Translations under genes and position numbers: made by a program
Source of the DNA: Betaproteobacteria bacterium UBA6910
GTDB lineage: Bacteria; Pseudomonadota; Gammaproteobacteria; Burkholderiales; UBA6910
Reading direction: 5' to 3'
Length of the DNA stretch: 14,314 nt
Assembly: GCA_002451065.1 (NCBI GenBank)
Contig: DKBC01000226.1
Location: 1 to 14,314 of the forward strand
Shown here: positions 8,801-14,314 of the stretch, piece after piece
How positions within the stretch are numbered: position 1 is the first letter of the stretch
Layout: each line of letters starts with the position of its first letter
The notes under the pieces: model-generated
What the model was told of the DNA's origin: nothing
The model's database searches: none
What the model saw: the letters and a program-made list of their open reading frames with translations, nothing else

Positions 8801-9286
8801 CTAAGCGCGTTCCCGGGATCTGGAAAGCCCGTCCCAGGCGGATTCCGTCGGGTTTTCCAGCAGCGACTCGACGAAGGACAGCGCCGCCGCCAAGTGGCGC
8901 CGGGCAGCTTCTCCCAGGGGTTCGCCGAGTTCGAAGTCCTCGCCGCGGATGCCGAGCAGGTAACACGGGGCCGGCTCGGATCGGTAGACGTCCTGATAGG
9001 CCGCCAGCAGCGCCTCGGGCGTCATGGCATGACTGGTGAAGCTGGCGTCGCGGAGAGGATGAACGCGGCGAAAAGCGAAAGGCGGCGGCGACGAAATCGA
9101 GGCGTCCACCAGCAGCACCAGCCGCCGTCCCTGCAGGTCGGTCACGTGCTCGGGCTGCAGCTGAAAATCCGTGAGGCCCTCGACGTCCGGCCTCTCACCG
9201 AGTTGCTCCAGCAGTTCCGGGCCCAGGGCGTCGTCGCCGCGGCTCGGGTTGCCCCAGGCGAAAACCAGGACCGAAGGCGGACTCAA
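8801..9286 (-). CDS. hoxW: HoxW, hydrogenase maturation endopeptidase
   Basis: A 161-residue cytoplasmic nickel-dependent protease that removes the C-terminal peptide of HoxH once nickel is inserted. The hydrogenase-protease signature is at the N-terminus: WGNPSRGDDALGP (11-23), with Asp18/Asp19 in the acidic position. Asp61 (VLLVDAS) and His86 (FTSHAM) are the likely remaining nickel-contact residues by analogy with HybD. The start is taken as TTG (9284-9286), which overlaps the hoxH stop by four bases (TTGA); a start far upstream would lie inside hoxH. No clear ribosome-binding site is present, so translation is probably coupled to hoxH. Its place as last hox gene fits HoxFUYHW operons. Downstream genes are co-directional, so read-through is possible. 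Confidence 0.88.
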   Translation of the reverse strand: MSPPSVLVFAWGNPSRGDDALGPELLEQLGERPDVEGLTDFQLQPEHVTDLQGRRLVLLVDASISSPPPFAFRRVHPLRDASFTSHAMTPEALLAAYQDVYRSEPAPCYLLGIRGEDFELGEPLGEAARRHLAAALSFVESLLENPTESAWDGLSRSRERA

Positions 9287-10773
9287 GCGATGCGCCGCAG
9301 GGCGCCGTGCCCGTCGCGGGCGAGGCAATCCACCCGCTCGCCCGCTGCGTCCAGGAGTTCTACTTCCAGGGGCATTCTGCCCAGGGCGTGGGTAGCGCAG
9401 GAGAGGCACGGATCGTAAGCGCGGATCGCCACCTCGATGTGGTTGAGCAGGGGTTCGGTGACCTCCTTGCCGTCGAGGTACTGAAGGGCCACCTGGCGCA
9501 CCGCCTCGTTCATGGCCTCGTTGTTGTGGGTCGTGGAGACGATCAGGTTGGCGCGCACCACCTGGTCGTTCTCGTTGATGCGGTAATGGTGGATGAGGGT
9601 TCCGCGAGGCGCCTCGATCACGCCCACCCCCCGGTACTGCCGCTCCCCCCTCACCACCAGGTCGTTCTTGATCAGATCGGAATCGCCCAGCAGGTCGCGG
9701 ATGCCCTCGGCGCAATGCAGCACCTCGACCATGCGCGCCCAGTGGTAGGCCAGGTTCGCCTGGCGGGCACCGCCGTGATCGAACTCCAGCAGCGCCTTGC
9801 GCTCGGCGTCCGCGAGCGGCGTGTCGATGAAATCACAGTTGTTGATGCGGGCCAAGGGCCCCACCCGGTACCAGCCGTCCTCGGCCCCGAGGGTCCGGAT
9901 GAAGGGAAACTTCATGTAAGACCAGGTCTTTGTCACCTCGTGGATGTAATCCCAGTACGCCCCATAGTCCACGTGGTCAAACACCGTCTCGCCGTGGGCA
10001 TCCCTGGCCCGCAGCCCCCCGTGGTAGAGATCGAGAGCGCCGTCGCCGCGCACCAACGACAAGTAGGAGGAGCGGAACGAGCCGAAGCCGTTGTGGAAAT
10101 CCTTGCGTTCGGCATAAAAGCGCTTCACCAGGTCGACCGCCTCGCGGCTCCAGTCGATGGCCTGGCTGACGTCCTGCAGCAGGTAATCCCGCTCCTCCGG
10201 GGAGAGGTGCTTGTTGACGCCGCCGGGCACCACCAGGGAGCCATGGATCCGCTTCCCGGCAAGGACCCGGATCACCTCCTGGCCGTACTTGCGCAGCCAC
10301 ACGCCCTTCTTCGCCACGTCGGGAAACGACTCGGCGACGGCAACGATGTTGCGCCTGGCCACTTCCGCGCCGAAGCCGAACAGCAGGTCGGGGGAACACA
10401 GGTGAAAGAAATGCAGGGCGTGGGATTGCAGGACCTGTCCGAAGTGCAGCAGGCGGCGCATTTTTTCGGCGGTGGGCGTAAGCTTCGTGGCGCCGGCCAG
10501 CATGTCCACCGCCTTCCCACCGGCCAGGTGATGGCTGACCGGGCAGATCCCGCAAAGCCGCTGCACCATCACCGGGACCTCCCAGTAAGGCCGCCCCTGG
10601 ACGAACTTCTCGAACCCACGGAATTCCACGATGTGGAACCGGGCCTGGTGGATACGGTTGTCGGCATCCAGCAGCAGGGTGACCTTGCCGTGACCCTCCA
10701 CCCGGGTCACCGGCTCGATGACGACCCGCCTGAGCTTCTCCGGATGCTTCGCGCTTTCGAGTATGTGCGTCAT
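9283..10773 (-). CDS. hoxH: HoxH, NAD-reducing hydrogenase large [NiFe] subunit
   Basis: A 496-residue catalytic subunit that carries the NiFe(CN)2CO centre and splits or forms H2 in the cytoplasm. The four nickel-binding cysteines are all present: Cys74 and Cys77 in RLCGICPVSHH, and Cys456 and Cys459 in DPCLSCATH. The N-terminal IEPVTRVEGHG motif is also intact. HoxW should cleave after His462, releasing a 34-residue tail. The ATG at 10773 follows the hoxY stop after 22 bases, with a GGAG about 12 bases upstream. Length and motifs match the group 3d HoxH of Cupriavidus. Partner is HoxY; electrons pass through its Fe-S cluster to the HoxFU diaphorase. Confidence 0.97.
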   Translation of the reverse strand: MTHILESAKHPEKLRRVVIEPVTRVEGHGKVTLLLDADNRIHQARFHIVEFRGFEKFVQGRPYWEVPVMVQRLCGICPVSHHLAGGKAVDMLAGATKLTPTAEKMRRLLHFGQVLQSHALHFFHLCSPDLLFGFGAEVARRNIVAVAESFPDVAKKGVWLRKYGQEVIRVLAGKRIHGSLVVPGGVNKHLSPEERDYLLQDVSQAIDWSREAVDLVKRFYAERKDFHNGFGSFRSSYLSLVRGDGALDLYHGGLRARDAHGETVFDHVDYGAYWDYIHEVTKTWSYMKFPFIRTLGAEDGWYRVGPLARINNCDFIDTPLADAERKALLEFDHGGARQANLAYHWARMVEVLHCAEGIRDLLGDSDLIKNDLVVRGERQYRGVGVIEAPRGTLIHHYRINENDQVVRANLIVSTTHNNEAMNEAVRQVALQYLDGKEVTEPLLNHIEVAIRAYDPCLSCATHALGRMPLEVELLDAAGERVDCLARDGHGALRRIA

Positions 10774-10795: not shown

Positions 10796-11338
10796 TCAGT
10801 CGTAATGGAGCATGCCGTGTTCCAGCACCGGCTCCCGGCCCGCGATCAGGTCCGTGAGGAACTTCCAGATGGCGTCCGCGGAAGGGGGGCACCCCGGAAG
10901 GAAATAGTCCACCCGCACCACCTCGTAAATGGGCCGCACCCGGTCAAACGGCAGGGGGAGCTCCCGGTCCTTGGGTATCACCCGGCCCTCGGTGCCGCCT
11001 TCGTACTGGTAAATCTCCTGGAAGCAGTCCCAGAGGTCCACGTTGTTGCGCATGGCCGGCACGCCGCCGGTGATGGCGCAGGCGCCCACCGCCACCAGGG
11101 TCCTGCAGTTGGCCCGGAACGCCTTCAGGACGTGGACGTTCTCAGCATTGCAGATGCCGCCCTCGATCAGCCCGATGTCGCAGGCGCCCACCTCCTTGAT
11201 GTCGGTTAGCGGCGTGCGATCGAATTCCACCAGCTTGAGGAGTTCGAACAGGCGCTCGTCGATATCCAGCAGGGACATGTGGCAGCCGAAGCACCCGGCC
11301 AGGGACGCGGTGGCCACCCTGAGCTTGCGCTCACCCAT
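10796..11338 (-). CDS. hoxY: HoxY, NAD-reducing hydrogenase small subunit
   Basis: A 180-residue cytoplasmic small subunit that holds the proximal [4Fe-4S] cluster next to the HoxH active site. Cluster ligands are Cys16 and Cys19 (GCFGCH), Cys87 (VGACAITGG) and Cys150 (LPGCPPSAD). There is no twin-arginine signal and no C-terminal extension for extra clusters, as expected for the short soluble group 3 type. The ATG (11336-11338) overlaps the hoxU stop by eight bases and has a GGGGAAGGG ribosome-binding site just upstream. In related enzymes an FMN near HoxY has been proposed; nothing in this sequence decides that. Third gene of the operon. Confidence 0.96.
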   Translation of the reverse strand: MGERKLRVATASLAGCFGCHMSLLDIDERLFELLKLVEFDRTPLTDIKEVGACDIGLIEGGICNAENVHVLKAFRANCRTLVAVGACAITGGVPAMRNNVDLWDCFQEIYQYEGGTEGRVIPKDRELPLPFDRVRPIYEVVRVDYFLPGCPPSADAIWKFLTDLIAGREPVLEHGMLHYD

Positions 11339-12065
11339 GACCCTTCCCCTTCAAGGTCTTTGCTTCCTCCAGGGCCACCTCGCTGATGGGCTGGCGGTCA
11401 TAGAGCCGCCTGCCAATGGGCGTCTCGTAGGCCCGGCGCTTGACCAGGATCGCCCCCACCGGGCACACCGCCACCGCCTTGTCCTTGGCCGAGAGGTTTG
11501 TGTCGGCCAGCAGCCCGGTGGGCGAGTTGACGATGAGCCTGGCCCGAATACCGCGCCCGCCGATGGCGAAGACGTCCTTTCCGTCCATGTCACGGCTCGC
11601 CCGCACGCAGAGCTCGCAAAGGATGCAACGGTTGCGGTCCAGCAGCACCTCCGGGTGGGAGGCATCCAGATCCCGGGCGGGGAAGAAGTGGTCGAAGCGG
11701 GGCGTCATCATACCCACGAAGTAGCCCACGGCCTGGAGCTGGCACTCGCCGCTCTTCTCGCATGCCGGACAGATGTGGTTGCCTTCCACGAACAGCATTT
11801 CGGTCAGGGCCCGCCGGCTGTCATTGAGTTCCGGGGTGTTGTTGAGCACCGTCATGCCGTCCTGGGCGCGCACCGTGCAGGCCGCCCCGTTGCGACCGTT
11901 GATGCTGACCGTGCACAGCTTGCAGCTGCCATGGGGCTTGAATCCCGGCTGGTGGCAAAGATGCGGGATGTAAACTCCGGCCTCGGTCGCCGCTTCCATG
12001 ATCGTCTCGCCATCTCGGTACGCGATCGCCATGCCGTCGAGGGTGAAGGCTCCGGCGCCGCTCAT
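11331..12065 (-). CDS. hoxU: HoxU, diaphorase Fe-S subunit of NAD-reducing hydrogenase
   Basis: A 244-residue electron-transfer subunit related to the N-terminal part of NuoG. Three cluster sites are visible. A [2Fe-2S] site uses Cys37, Cys48, Cys51 and Cys63. A His-ligated [4Fe-4S] site uses His97, Cys99, Cys102 and Cys108 (GNHICPACEKSGECQLQ). A further [4Fe-4S] site uses Cys147, Cys150, Cys153 (CILCELC) and Cys201 (CPVG). The ATG (12063-12065) overlaps the hoxF stop as ATGA; a longer frame inside hoxF is rejected. HoxU links the FMN of HoxF to the HoxY cluster and is complete for all expected ligands. It overlaps hoxY by eight bases. Confidence 0.95.
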   Translation of the reverse strand: MSGAGAFTLDGMAIAYRDGETIMEAATEAGVYIPHLCHQPGFKPHGSCKLCTVSINGRNGAACTVRAQDGMTVLNNTPELNDSRRALTEMLFVEGNHICPACEKSGECQLQAVGYFVGMMTPRFDHFFPARDLDASHPEVLLDRNRCILCELCVRASRDMDGKDVFAIGGRGIRARLIVNSPTGLLADTNLSAKDKAVAVCPVGAILVKRRAYETPIGRRLYDRQPISEVALEEAKTLKGKGHG

Positions 12066-13861
12066 GGCTGCTTGCTGACGATGTGGGCCCATTCGTCATC
12101 GCGCCCGGTAATCAGGCGCGCCGTCTGCAAGGCGCCGTCCAGGTCGAACGCCGGCTCAAAGTCCAGATTCCTGAGCCGCCGCTCGTAGGCGTCCGGGAAC
12201 TTCTCCATCGTCTGCACCACCGGATTCGCGGCCGTGTGACCCAGGCCGCAGTGGCTCATGGTGAGCATGATGTGCATCAGGCGCTTCATCTGCACCATGT
12301 CGTAGGCGCTGCCCTTGCCGGCCGCCAGCTTGTCCATGTGATTGCGCAGGAGGGAGGTGCCCACGCGGCACGGCGTGCAGAAGCCGCAACTCTCGTGGGC
12401 GAAAAAGTGGGCGAAGTTGCGCGCCACCTCGAACATGTCCCTGTCCCGGGAAAACACCATGAACGCGCCCGCCGTCGGCACGTCCTCGAAGCAGATGCGC
12501 CGGTCGAACTCCCTCCAGGATACGCAGGTGCCCGACGGGCCTCCCACCTGAACCGCCTGGGCGTTGCCGGCTCCGCAGTCCGACAGGACCTGCTTTACCG
12601 AGACGCCGAACGGGTATTCATAGACTCCGGGTCGCTTGACGTCGCCGGAGACGGACATCAGCTTGCTGCCGGTGGATGCCGGCGTACCCATGCCGGCGAA
12701 CCACGCCCCGCCGTGGACCGCGATCTTGGCGGCACAGGCAAAGGTTTCCACGTTGTTAACGCCGGTCGGTTCGCCCAGGTAGCCGAACGTGTCCGGGTAT
12801 GGCGGGCGGTTGCGCGGCTTCCCGGGTTTTCCTTCCAGGGATTCGATGAGCGCCGATTCCTCGCCGCAGATATAGGCGCCGGCTCCCAGATGAATCTCGA
12901 TATCGAAATCGAAACCCTGCTCGCCGAGAATGCCCTTGCCCAGCAGGCCGTCCTTACGACGCCGCGCCAACACCGCCTCGAGCCGCTGCAGCAGGTAAAG
13001 ATACTCGCCCCGAAGGTAGACCATGCCGTGACTCGCGCCGATCACCCGCGCCGCCAGCGTCATGCCCTCGAACACCAGATCGGCATGGCTTTGCAGGAGC
13101 ACCCGGTCCTTGAACGTGCCCGGCTCGCCCTCGTCGGCGTTGCAGACCACGTGCTTCTCGCTTCCCTGGGCGCGGCGGCAGGACGCCCACTTAACCGCAG
13201 TCTTGAAGCCGGCGCCCCCCCGCCCCCTCAAGTTCGAGGCATCCAGCTCGGCCAGCGTCCTCTCTGCTCCCTGCTTCAGCACCTTGCGCAGCGCGGAGCC
13301 CGGCTCAAACGCCTGACCCAGCAGGGGACCCGCCTTGCGCACGTTGTCGGCCACCTCGAACAGCATGCGGGGCCACCGGGCCAGCGGCTTCTGGTCCCGG
13401 ATCAGGCCTGCCACCAGTTCCAGCCGGCTCTCGTCAAGGGACGGCAGCACGTGGCCGTTCACCAGCGCGGCGGGTCCCTGGTCCGCCATGCCGATGTCCG
13501 AGGTGCTCTCCACATAAACCAGGCCGTCTTCGGAGAGCTTCCCCGGCTGCAACCACAGGAGCTTGCACAGGTATTGCATCATCTCCCGCTTGCCCAGCAT
13601 CTGGTCGATGATGTTGTCCGAGAACAGGATCTCGTAGGCGCCGTGGGACTCGGAGTGGAAAAAATGGTAGAAGCTTGCCGCGGATTCCACCCTCACGCGG
13701 GGGGTGCGCAGGGCACGGGCCAGCTCGTCAAGGGCGGGGCCCGGAAGGCATCGGAGTTCCGCCTGCACCTCGCGCAGGATCTGCACCAGGTGGCTCGGGC
13801 GCGCGCCGTGGCGTTCCACGCTGTGACCGACGGCTTCGGATATTGGAGCAATCCTGGGCAT
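12062..13861 (-). CDS. hoxF: HoxF, NAD/FMN diaphorase subunit of NAD-reducing hydrogenase
   Basis: A 599-residue subunit, near the usual 600. Residues 1 to about 150 are a NuoE-like thioredoxin-fold domain, and the rest is NuoF-like. NADH/FMN elements include GRGGAGF (213-219), NADEGEPGTFKDR (241-253) and GEESALIESLEGKPGKPR (333-350). The [4Fe-4S] ligands are Cys492, Cys495, Cys498 (SCGFCTPC) and Cys538. In the NuoE-like part the four [2Fe-2S] cysteines are missing: the places read FSDNIID (80-86) and STSDIGMADQGP (119-130), so that cluster is probably absent. The ATG at 13861 is limited by an in-frame TAG 12 bases upstream and has no clear ribosome-binding site. First gene of the operon, reading away from a perfect FNR box 82 bases upstream. 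Confidence 0.96.
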   Translation of the reverse strand: MPRIAPISEAVGHSVERHGARPSHLVQILREVQAELRCLPGPALDELARALRTPRVRVESAASFYHFFHSESHGAYEILFSDNIIDQMLGKREMMQYLCKLLWLQPGKLSEDGLVYVESTSDIGMADQGPAALVNGHVLPSLDESRLELVAGLIRDQKPLARWPRMLFEVADNVRKAGPLLGQAFEPGSALRKVLKQGAERTLAELDASNLRGRGGAGFKTAVKWASCRRAQGSEKHVVCNADEGEPGTFKDRVLLQSHADLVFEGMTLAARVIGASHGMVYLRGEYLYLLQRLEAVLARRRKDGLLGKGILGEQGFDFDIEIHLGAGAYICGEESALIESLEGKPGKPRNRPPYPDTFGYLGEPTGVNNVETFACAAKIAVHGGAWFAGMGTPASTGSKLMSVSGDVKRPGVYEYPFGVSVKQVLSDCGAGNAQAVQVGGPSGTCVSWREFDRRICFEDVPTAGAFMVFSRDRDMFEVARNFAHFFAHESCGFCTPCRVGTSLLRNHMDKLAAGKGSAYDMVQMKRLMHIMLTMSHCGLGHTAANPVVQTMEKFPDAYERRLRNLDFEPAFDLDGALQTARLITGRDDEWAHIVSKQP

Positions 13862-13909
13862 GCGGATGGACTACCGGAGAGATCAGCCGCGAAAGCCGAC
13901 CCAGCCGCC

Positions 13910-13915
13910 ATGCTA
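13910..13915 (-). promoter_or_regulatory. candidate -10 element of the hox promoter
   Basis: On the minus strand this reads TAGCAT (4 of 6 to TATAAT, including the key A and T). Its centre is 31 bases from the centre of the FNR box, close to the 32 bases expected for a class II FNR promoter. Transcription would start near 13903 and give a leader of about 42 bases before hoxF. No good -35 is needed in that promoter class. Confidence 0.45.
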
Positions 13916-13936
13916 GCCGCTCTCCGCGGCCCGAGT

Positions 13937-13950
13937 TTGATTTAGATCAA
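13937..13950. promoter_or_regulatory. perfect FNR/ANR-type binding site upstream of hoxF
   Basis: TTGAT-TTAG-ATCAA matches the FNR/ANR/Dnr consensus TTGAT-N4-ATCAA at all ten specified positions. It is centred at 13943.5, 82 bases from the hoxF ATG, in the only sizeable gap beside the operon. The gene on its other side reads the same way and ends there, so hox is the only downstream target. Expected effect is activation under low oxygen. Confidence 0.82.
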
Positions 13951-14026
13951 CGCGCCCCGGCCCGTGACTCACACTGCAGCCTGCACTATCACGCGTCCGC
14001 ACGCCGGCATCCGCAGCCGGGCCGGA

Positions 14027-14314
14027 TCAGGAGCGCTTGTCGTCCTGGCGCAGCGCCTCGGAAAGGCCGGCGAGAAATCCGCTGGTGACCTCGGCCCATC
14101 GCGTGGACATTTCCTTTGCCGCCTCGAGTCCCGCGATCTGGGTGTCGATGTAGGTTCGTGCCATACGCTGGGTGAACTCGTTCATGGTGCTCGCAACTTT
14201 CACTCCGGTGTCCGTCCCGCTGCGCCGCATATGGCTGAGGACATCCCTGAACTGGCCCTTTACCACGGGCTTGGCGGATTCGCCGACCTGCGCCACCGTG
14301 GAAAGAAAGTCCTC
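14027..14314 (-). CDS. helical phasin-like protein, C-terminal part
   Basis: Partial gene, open from the right window edge and ending with TGA at 14027; 95 codons are visible. An in-frame GTG at 14296 is possible, but the frame stays open through the edge with similar sequence (EDFLSTVAQ), so the true start is probably outside. The sequence is almost entirely predicted amphipathic helix, with regular Ala, Leu, Glu and Arg spacing (ASTMNEFTQRMARTYIDTQ, then LEAAKEMSTRWAEVTSGFL), no cysteine and no signal peptide. This resembles phasins and related granule or coiled-coil proteins, but I cannot assign a family. A separate transcription unit from hox is suggested by the FNR promoter downstream of its stop. 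Confidence 0.55.
   Translation of the reverse strand, partial: EDFLSTVAQVGESAKPVVKGQFRDVLSHMRRSGTDTGVKVASTMNEFTQRMARTYIDTQIAGLEAAKEMSTRWAEVTSGFLAGLSEALRQDDKRS

Follow-up and report, generated by a model that had tools for sequence, protein, structure and literature searches.

The hoxFUYHW operon of Betaproteobacteria bacterium UBA6910 encodes an NAD-linked hydrogenase and raises the question of which signal turns it on. An earlier note on this DNA proposed a class II FNR/ANR promoter and direct induction at low oxygen. The window is the whole stretch of DNA that was analyzed, 14,314 nt in length. It contains the following features.

13937..13950, minus strand: FNR-type box, TTGATTTAGATCAA, reading TTGATCTAAATCAA on the minus strand, with 0 mismatches; it recurs in relatives
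13910..13915, minus strand, read 13915 to 13910: -10-like hexamer TAGCAT; TANNNT stands at the equal offset in the leaders of 20 relatives
13903, minus strand: predicted transcription start, counted by hand from the hexamer
13862..13902, minus strand: predicted 5' leader of the hox message, without a convincing sigma-54 element
12062..13861, minus strand: hoxF, diaphorase subunit, 42.6% identical to HoxF of Cupriavidus necator, with NuoF/NuoE-type matches below curated cut-offs
11331..12092, minus strand: hoxU, matching the NCBIfam HoxU model at 184.6 bits, below the cut-off of 333
10796..11338, minus strand: hoxY, small hydrogenase subunit, so named for its place in the gene order and for family matches that fall below cut-offs
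9283..10773, minus strand: hoxH, large hydrogenase subunit, named on the same grounds as hoxY, with family matches likewise below cut-offs
8801..9290 (5' end approximate), minus strand: hoxW-like hydrogenase maturation protease, TIGR00072 at 70.8 bits against a cut-off of 47.45

The genes hoxF, hoxU, hoxY, and hoxH stand in that order, which is the gene set of a group 3d NAD-linked [NiFe] hydrogenase. All four have NCBIfam matches below the curated cut-offs and were therefore named from gene order and the similarity of HoxF to its C. necator counterpart. Upstream on the hoxF strand lies the C-terminal part of a DUF6781 protein (14027-14314), which ends at 14027 and is cut by the window edge.

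The predicted promoter region upstream of hoxF

The gap between the DUF6781 ORF and hoxF is 165 nt and holds both the box and TAGCAT. TTGATTTAGATCAA is the sole exact match to TTGATNNNNATCAA within the window; its half-sites are both perfect, and its middle four bases are asymmetric. The earlier note described a perfect TTGAT-N4-ATCAA palindrome 82 bases before hoxF and a TAGCAT hexamer 31 bases from its center, and both descriptions are exact. From the center of the box it is 82 nt to the hoxF ATG (13861, minus strand) and 31 bp to the center of the hexamer. Between box center and hexamer lie 28 nt, a distance referred to here as offset 28. The predicted start at 13903 is 7 nt on from the hexamer, and relative to it the box is centered at approximately -40.5.

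TAGCAT agrees with TATAAT at 4/6 positions. A sigma-70 scan of 13700-14314 that required a -35 element returned no promoter, which weakly favors an activator-dependent promoter. Other targets for the box were considered and rejected. The DUF6781 ORF on the same strand already ends before the box, and the ORFs on the plus strand overlap the box or hoxF in antisense and look spurious.

Box and spacing among hoxF relatives

A HoxF search of named genome contigs gave 431 relatives, of which the best 80 were taken. One of these (L097), lacking upstream DNA, was omitted from the leader and tree sets. The leader set therefore has 81 members: 79 relatives, the window, and C. necator. Within this set drawn from the best 80 of 431, boxes scoring 10/10 occur in 11/81 leaders, where dinucleotide shuffles predict 0.06, and boxes scoring 9/10 occur in 15/81, C. 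necator included, against 1.9 expected. The remaining 55/81 leaders score 8 or less.

The spacing recurs along with the box. With C. necator excluded, 25 leaders from the same set have a box of at least 9, and TANNNT is found at offset 28 in 21 of them (the window and 20 relatives). It is found at offset 27 in two others and at 29 in one, and L059 has a box but lacks the hexamer. Among the 55 leaders without a box of at least 9, TANNNT occurs at offset 28 in three (L096, L103, and L107), the boxes of which score 8. When near-copies were grouped at 70% identity over 47 nt, the box leaders formed 14 groups, and by hand count 13 of these have the hexamer at offsets 27-29.

The nearest clade carries TTGAC-N4-GTCAA in nine leaders (L029-L036 and L038) and TTGAT-N4-ATCAA in L039. 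The hexamers in those nine leaders include TACCTT and TAACGT. L037, within the HoxF clade of the window, has no box. Box-plus-hexamer, assigned by hand as a box of at least 9 with TANNNT at offsets 27-29, was mapped onto a quickly built HoxF tree with 81 rows (79 relatives from the best 80 of 431, the window, and C. necator). It is present in 11/12 rows of the clade containing the window (SH-aLRT 97). Outside that clade, it is also seen in separate rows from Accumulibacter and from Sulfuritalea-like and Sideroxydans-like bacteria. The starred branches of the tree force at least six changes of this trait, with gains and losses indistinguishable.

A separate set of 150 genomes contains 22 relatives with hoxF besides the host, six of which are also among the named loci. 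Of the relatives with upstream DNA, a box of at least 9 was found in 1/21, namely G002 (L024 excluded). The box before hoxF is thus not general in relatives. Its conservation, raised by the earlier note, is partial: it recurs far above chance, but 55/81 leaders score 8 or less and 20 of the 21 relatives in the separate set lack it.

FNR-type boxes in the host genome

The host assembly comprises 3.28 Mb in 365 contigs and is 85.5% complete. In it, 22 sites match the relaxed pattern TTGAYNNNNRTCAA, and 9/22 are strict TTGAT-N4-ATCAA sites; reversing this pattern as a control gives 1 site. Genes adjoining host boxes include hemN, the fumarate reductase cytochrome b subunit, nqrA, an octaheme cytochrome, and a heme A synthase-like gene whose match is below cut-off. 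One box sits between hemN and an fnr gene.

In the 44 orientations of the 22 boxes, TANNNT was counted three times at offset 28, four at 29, and two at 30, nine in all, whereas offsets other than 28 and 29 average 0.23 occurrences each. TAGCAT itself recurs by the boxes near a b-type-cytochrome-like gene and an Rrf2-family regulator. At 13/22 boxes, no TANNNT was found at offsets 27-30, and some boxes fall within long open frames, so the host boxes are not all promoters. Likewise, two 10/10 boxes in the G150 stretch examined (G150 is the record behind L038) have no sense-strand TANNNT at offset 28, which argues against a general rule. The class II geometry proposed for hoxF is supported, as the spacing recurs in relatives, at other host boxes, and at Escherichia coli nirB.

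A further box, TTGACCTAAATCAA, is located at G000:C288:23462-23475 (L141:6963), in the other hydrogenase cluster. It scores 10/10, has TATCGT at offset 28, and lies approximately 90 nt upstream of the gene for a hupD-family protease, on a contig that continues to hypB, hypF, and hypD. This box may be an internal promoter for the maturation genes. In G002, a 12/13 sigma-54-like element (L192:3661-3677) precedes hupD in place of the FNR box. Another box, at C288:18924, was rejected as the promoter of the other hydrogenase; a divergent ORF is nearer, and hydA has its own sigma-54-like element.

FNR-family regulators

An FNR-dependent promoter calls for an FNR-family regulator in the genome, and the host encodes two candidates. 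Crp-type HTH proteins number five by Pfam, and the FNR model adds one on C334. The homologues on C273 and C195 score 251 and 249 bits against the NCBIfam FNR cut-off of 228. Their identity to E. coli FNR is 41% and 43%, respectively, and the alignment shows that both retain the cluster cysteines Cys20, 23, 29, and 122. The C273 protein also retains E209, S212, and R213.

In the C195 homologue (L002:868-1725, G000:C195), Cys replaces Ser212 of the DNA-reading helix, and a neighboring ORF resembles, by eye, a copper-type P-type ATPase. The regulator on C334 is Crp/Fnr-like, lacks the CxxCx5C motif, and has an E-H-F-S-R helix; it is called DNR-like by eye. One more Crp/Fnr-family protein (L005:898-1710, G000:C191) has CxxC without the full CxxCx5C and an E-T-V-S-R helix.

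FNR presence was rejected as a discriminating trait. All 24 of the hoxF genomes searched match the FNR family, and 22/24 are over the cut-off, box or no box.

Proposed mechanism and alternative explanations

The hoxFUYHW genes are quite probably transcribed from an activator-dependent class II promoter, with FNR at the box activating at low oxygen. In this mechanism, an FNR dimer with its iron-sulfur cluster would bind TTGATCTAAATCAA about 41 bp before the start when oxygen is low. The bound FNR would then touch RNA polymerase (sigma-70), and the contact would compensate for the missing -35 element and the weak -10 (TAGCAT). From the sequence, we infer that the box is read by FNR and not by another family member, that FNR activates there, and that low oxygen is the main condition under which the hydrogenase is produced. 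Because the promoter is FNR-shaped and recurs in relatives, the enzyme is probably turned on by oxygen loss and not by hydrogen sensing of the Cupriavidus type.

A chance coincidence of box and hexamer, with hoxF transcribed in another way, is the least credible alternative and very improbable. TAGCAT is a weak -10 and most relatives' leaders lack the box, as such a coincidence would allow, but box and spacing stand far above chance both in relatives and at the other boxes of the host. A chance origin of the box itself was rejected on the counts given above (22 sites versus 1 in the host, and 11 perfect boxes in leaders versus 0.06 expected).

A different activator at the same class II promoter is a more likely alternative, but still an unlikely one. 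The box would be bound during denitrification by an NO-responsive relative of the DNR/NnrR type, alone or with FNR. DNR reads TTGAT-N4-ATCAA, the DNR-like regulator shares C334 with nirS-type genes (three strong PF02239 matches), and L005 likewise has an E-T-V-S-R helix. Against this, the host boxes reach beyond nitrogen-oxide genes to hemN, fumarate reductase, and nqrA, and positions 5000-21683 of C334 contain no 10/10 box and only two of 9/10. Since a DNR-like regulator could read the box, direct induction of hox by low oxygen is rated as likely and no higher.

Control by HoxA and sigma-54 as in C. necator, with a weak element and the FNR box secondary, is improbable. The host encodes the necessary parts: C61 carries HoxB, HoxC, HoxJ, and HoxA, the last in two pieces with 55-59% identity, and RpoN is also present. 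The 200 nt before hoxF contain five GG-N10-GC strings, where base shuffles average 3.1. The earlier note noticed no such element in the gap, which does not hold to the letter, but the best match to the fuller consensus scores 9/13, which is chance level. No -24/-12 element above chance was found in the hoxF leader by a scan that also gives the C. necator hoxF element 9/13, equal to the best in the window; the scan can therefore miss weak real elements. Even so, sigma-54 scores over the 81 hoxF leaders (best 80 of 431) match those of shuffles. Elsewhere in the host, 12/13 elements do occur: TTGGCACGGAACTTGTA lies approximately 95 nt upstream of the small-subunit gene of the other hydrogenase, and another precedes a nickel-permease-like gene on C61 (named by eye, with no NCBIfam match).

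The contrast with sigma-54/HoxA control drawn in the earlier note is therefore to be restated. It holds for the hoxF leader, which lacks a convincing element, but not for the cell, which has HoxA, HoxB, HoxC, HoxJ, and RpoN. With the HoxA system present, the contrast sets one hydrogenase operon against another within a single cell and does not reflect the absence of the system. Loss of the hydrogen sensor is not supported as the reason for FNR control, as HoxB and a hoxF box occur together in the host, G002, and G150.

Meaning of the proposed FNR control at hox

Class II promoters activated by FNR are already known, as is the regulation of hydrogenase genes by members of the FNR family. FNR control of a hoxFUYH operon was not found among the titles and abstract openings of the matches listed in the literature searched, a body that most subscription journals lie outside. 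A tentative generalization, somewhat more doubtful than not, is that Rhodocyclales-type Betaproteobacteria have placed the NAD-linked hydrogenase under FNR more than once and have kept HoxBC/HoxJ/HoxA and sigma-54 for the membrane-bound hydrogenase. If true, the NAD-linked enzyme would act as a redox valve under anaerobic conditions, and the membrane enzyme would serve for uptake and be induced by hydrogen.

Although this hydrogenase class has been studied best in its role as a knallgas enzyme induced by hydrogen, it is predicted to be wired to oxygen limitation in several betaproteobacterial groups, mostly known from metagenomes. The predicted split of two hydrogenases between two sensors in one cell is the interesting part. 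These predictions bear on whether these bacteria produce or use hydrogen without oxygen.

Comparison with known systems

The class II FNR promoters of E. coli share the box with the window. In E. coli K-12, the leader of nirB carries TTGATTTACATCAA followed by TAAGGT at offset 28, the same spacing as in the window, and narG has TACCTT at offset 29. In the dmsA leader, no TANNNT was found at offset 28 or 29. All three promoters are listed at -41.5 in the available part of PMC3688515, which places 19/23 FNR-activated promoters at -41.5 +/- 4. The E. coli promoters drive nitrite and nitrate reductases, whereas the predicted promoter in the window drives an NAD-linked hydrogenase.

FnrT controls a hydrogenase in Thiocapsa. 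The soluble hydrogenase operon of C. necator (hoxFUYHWI) resembles the window in gene order and in HoxF (42.6% identity), and the host likewise has HoxA, HoxB, HoxC, and HoxJ. According to the available part of PMC4377017, both C. necator hydrogenase promoters depend on sigma-54 and HoxA, whereas in the window the promoter is of the FNR type and lacks a convincing sigma-54 element.

In Rhizobium leguminosarum, the hypBFCDEX operon is under an FnrN-type promoter, as described in the available part of PMC3534401, which provides a precedent for FNR-type control of hyp genes. The likeness to the predicted hox promoter is that a member of the FNR family controls genes related to hydrogenase when oxygen is low. 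The Rhizobium operon contains maturation genes of an uptake hydrogenase, whereas the window contains the operon of an NAD-linked hydrogenase.

The group 3d hydrogenases of Accumulibacter are a further comparison, with five hoxF leaders (L088, L094, L101, L102, and L104) that have a 9/10 box and TANNNT at offset 28. Anaerobic hydrogen production has been suggested in some Accumulibacter species, as stated in the available part of PMC4930944, citing Oyserman et al. 2015.
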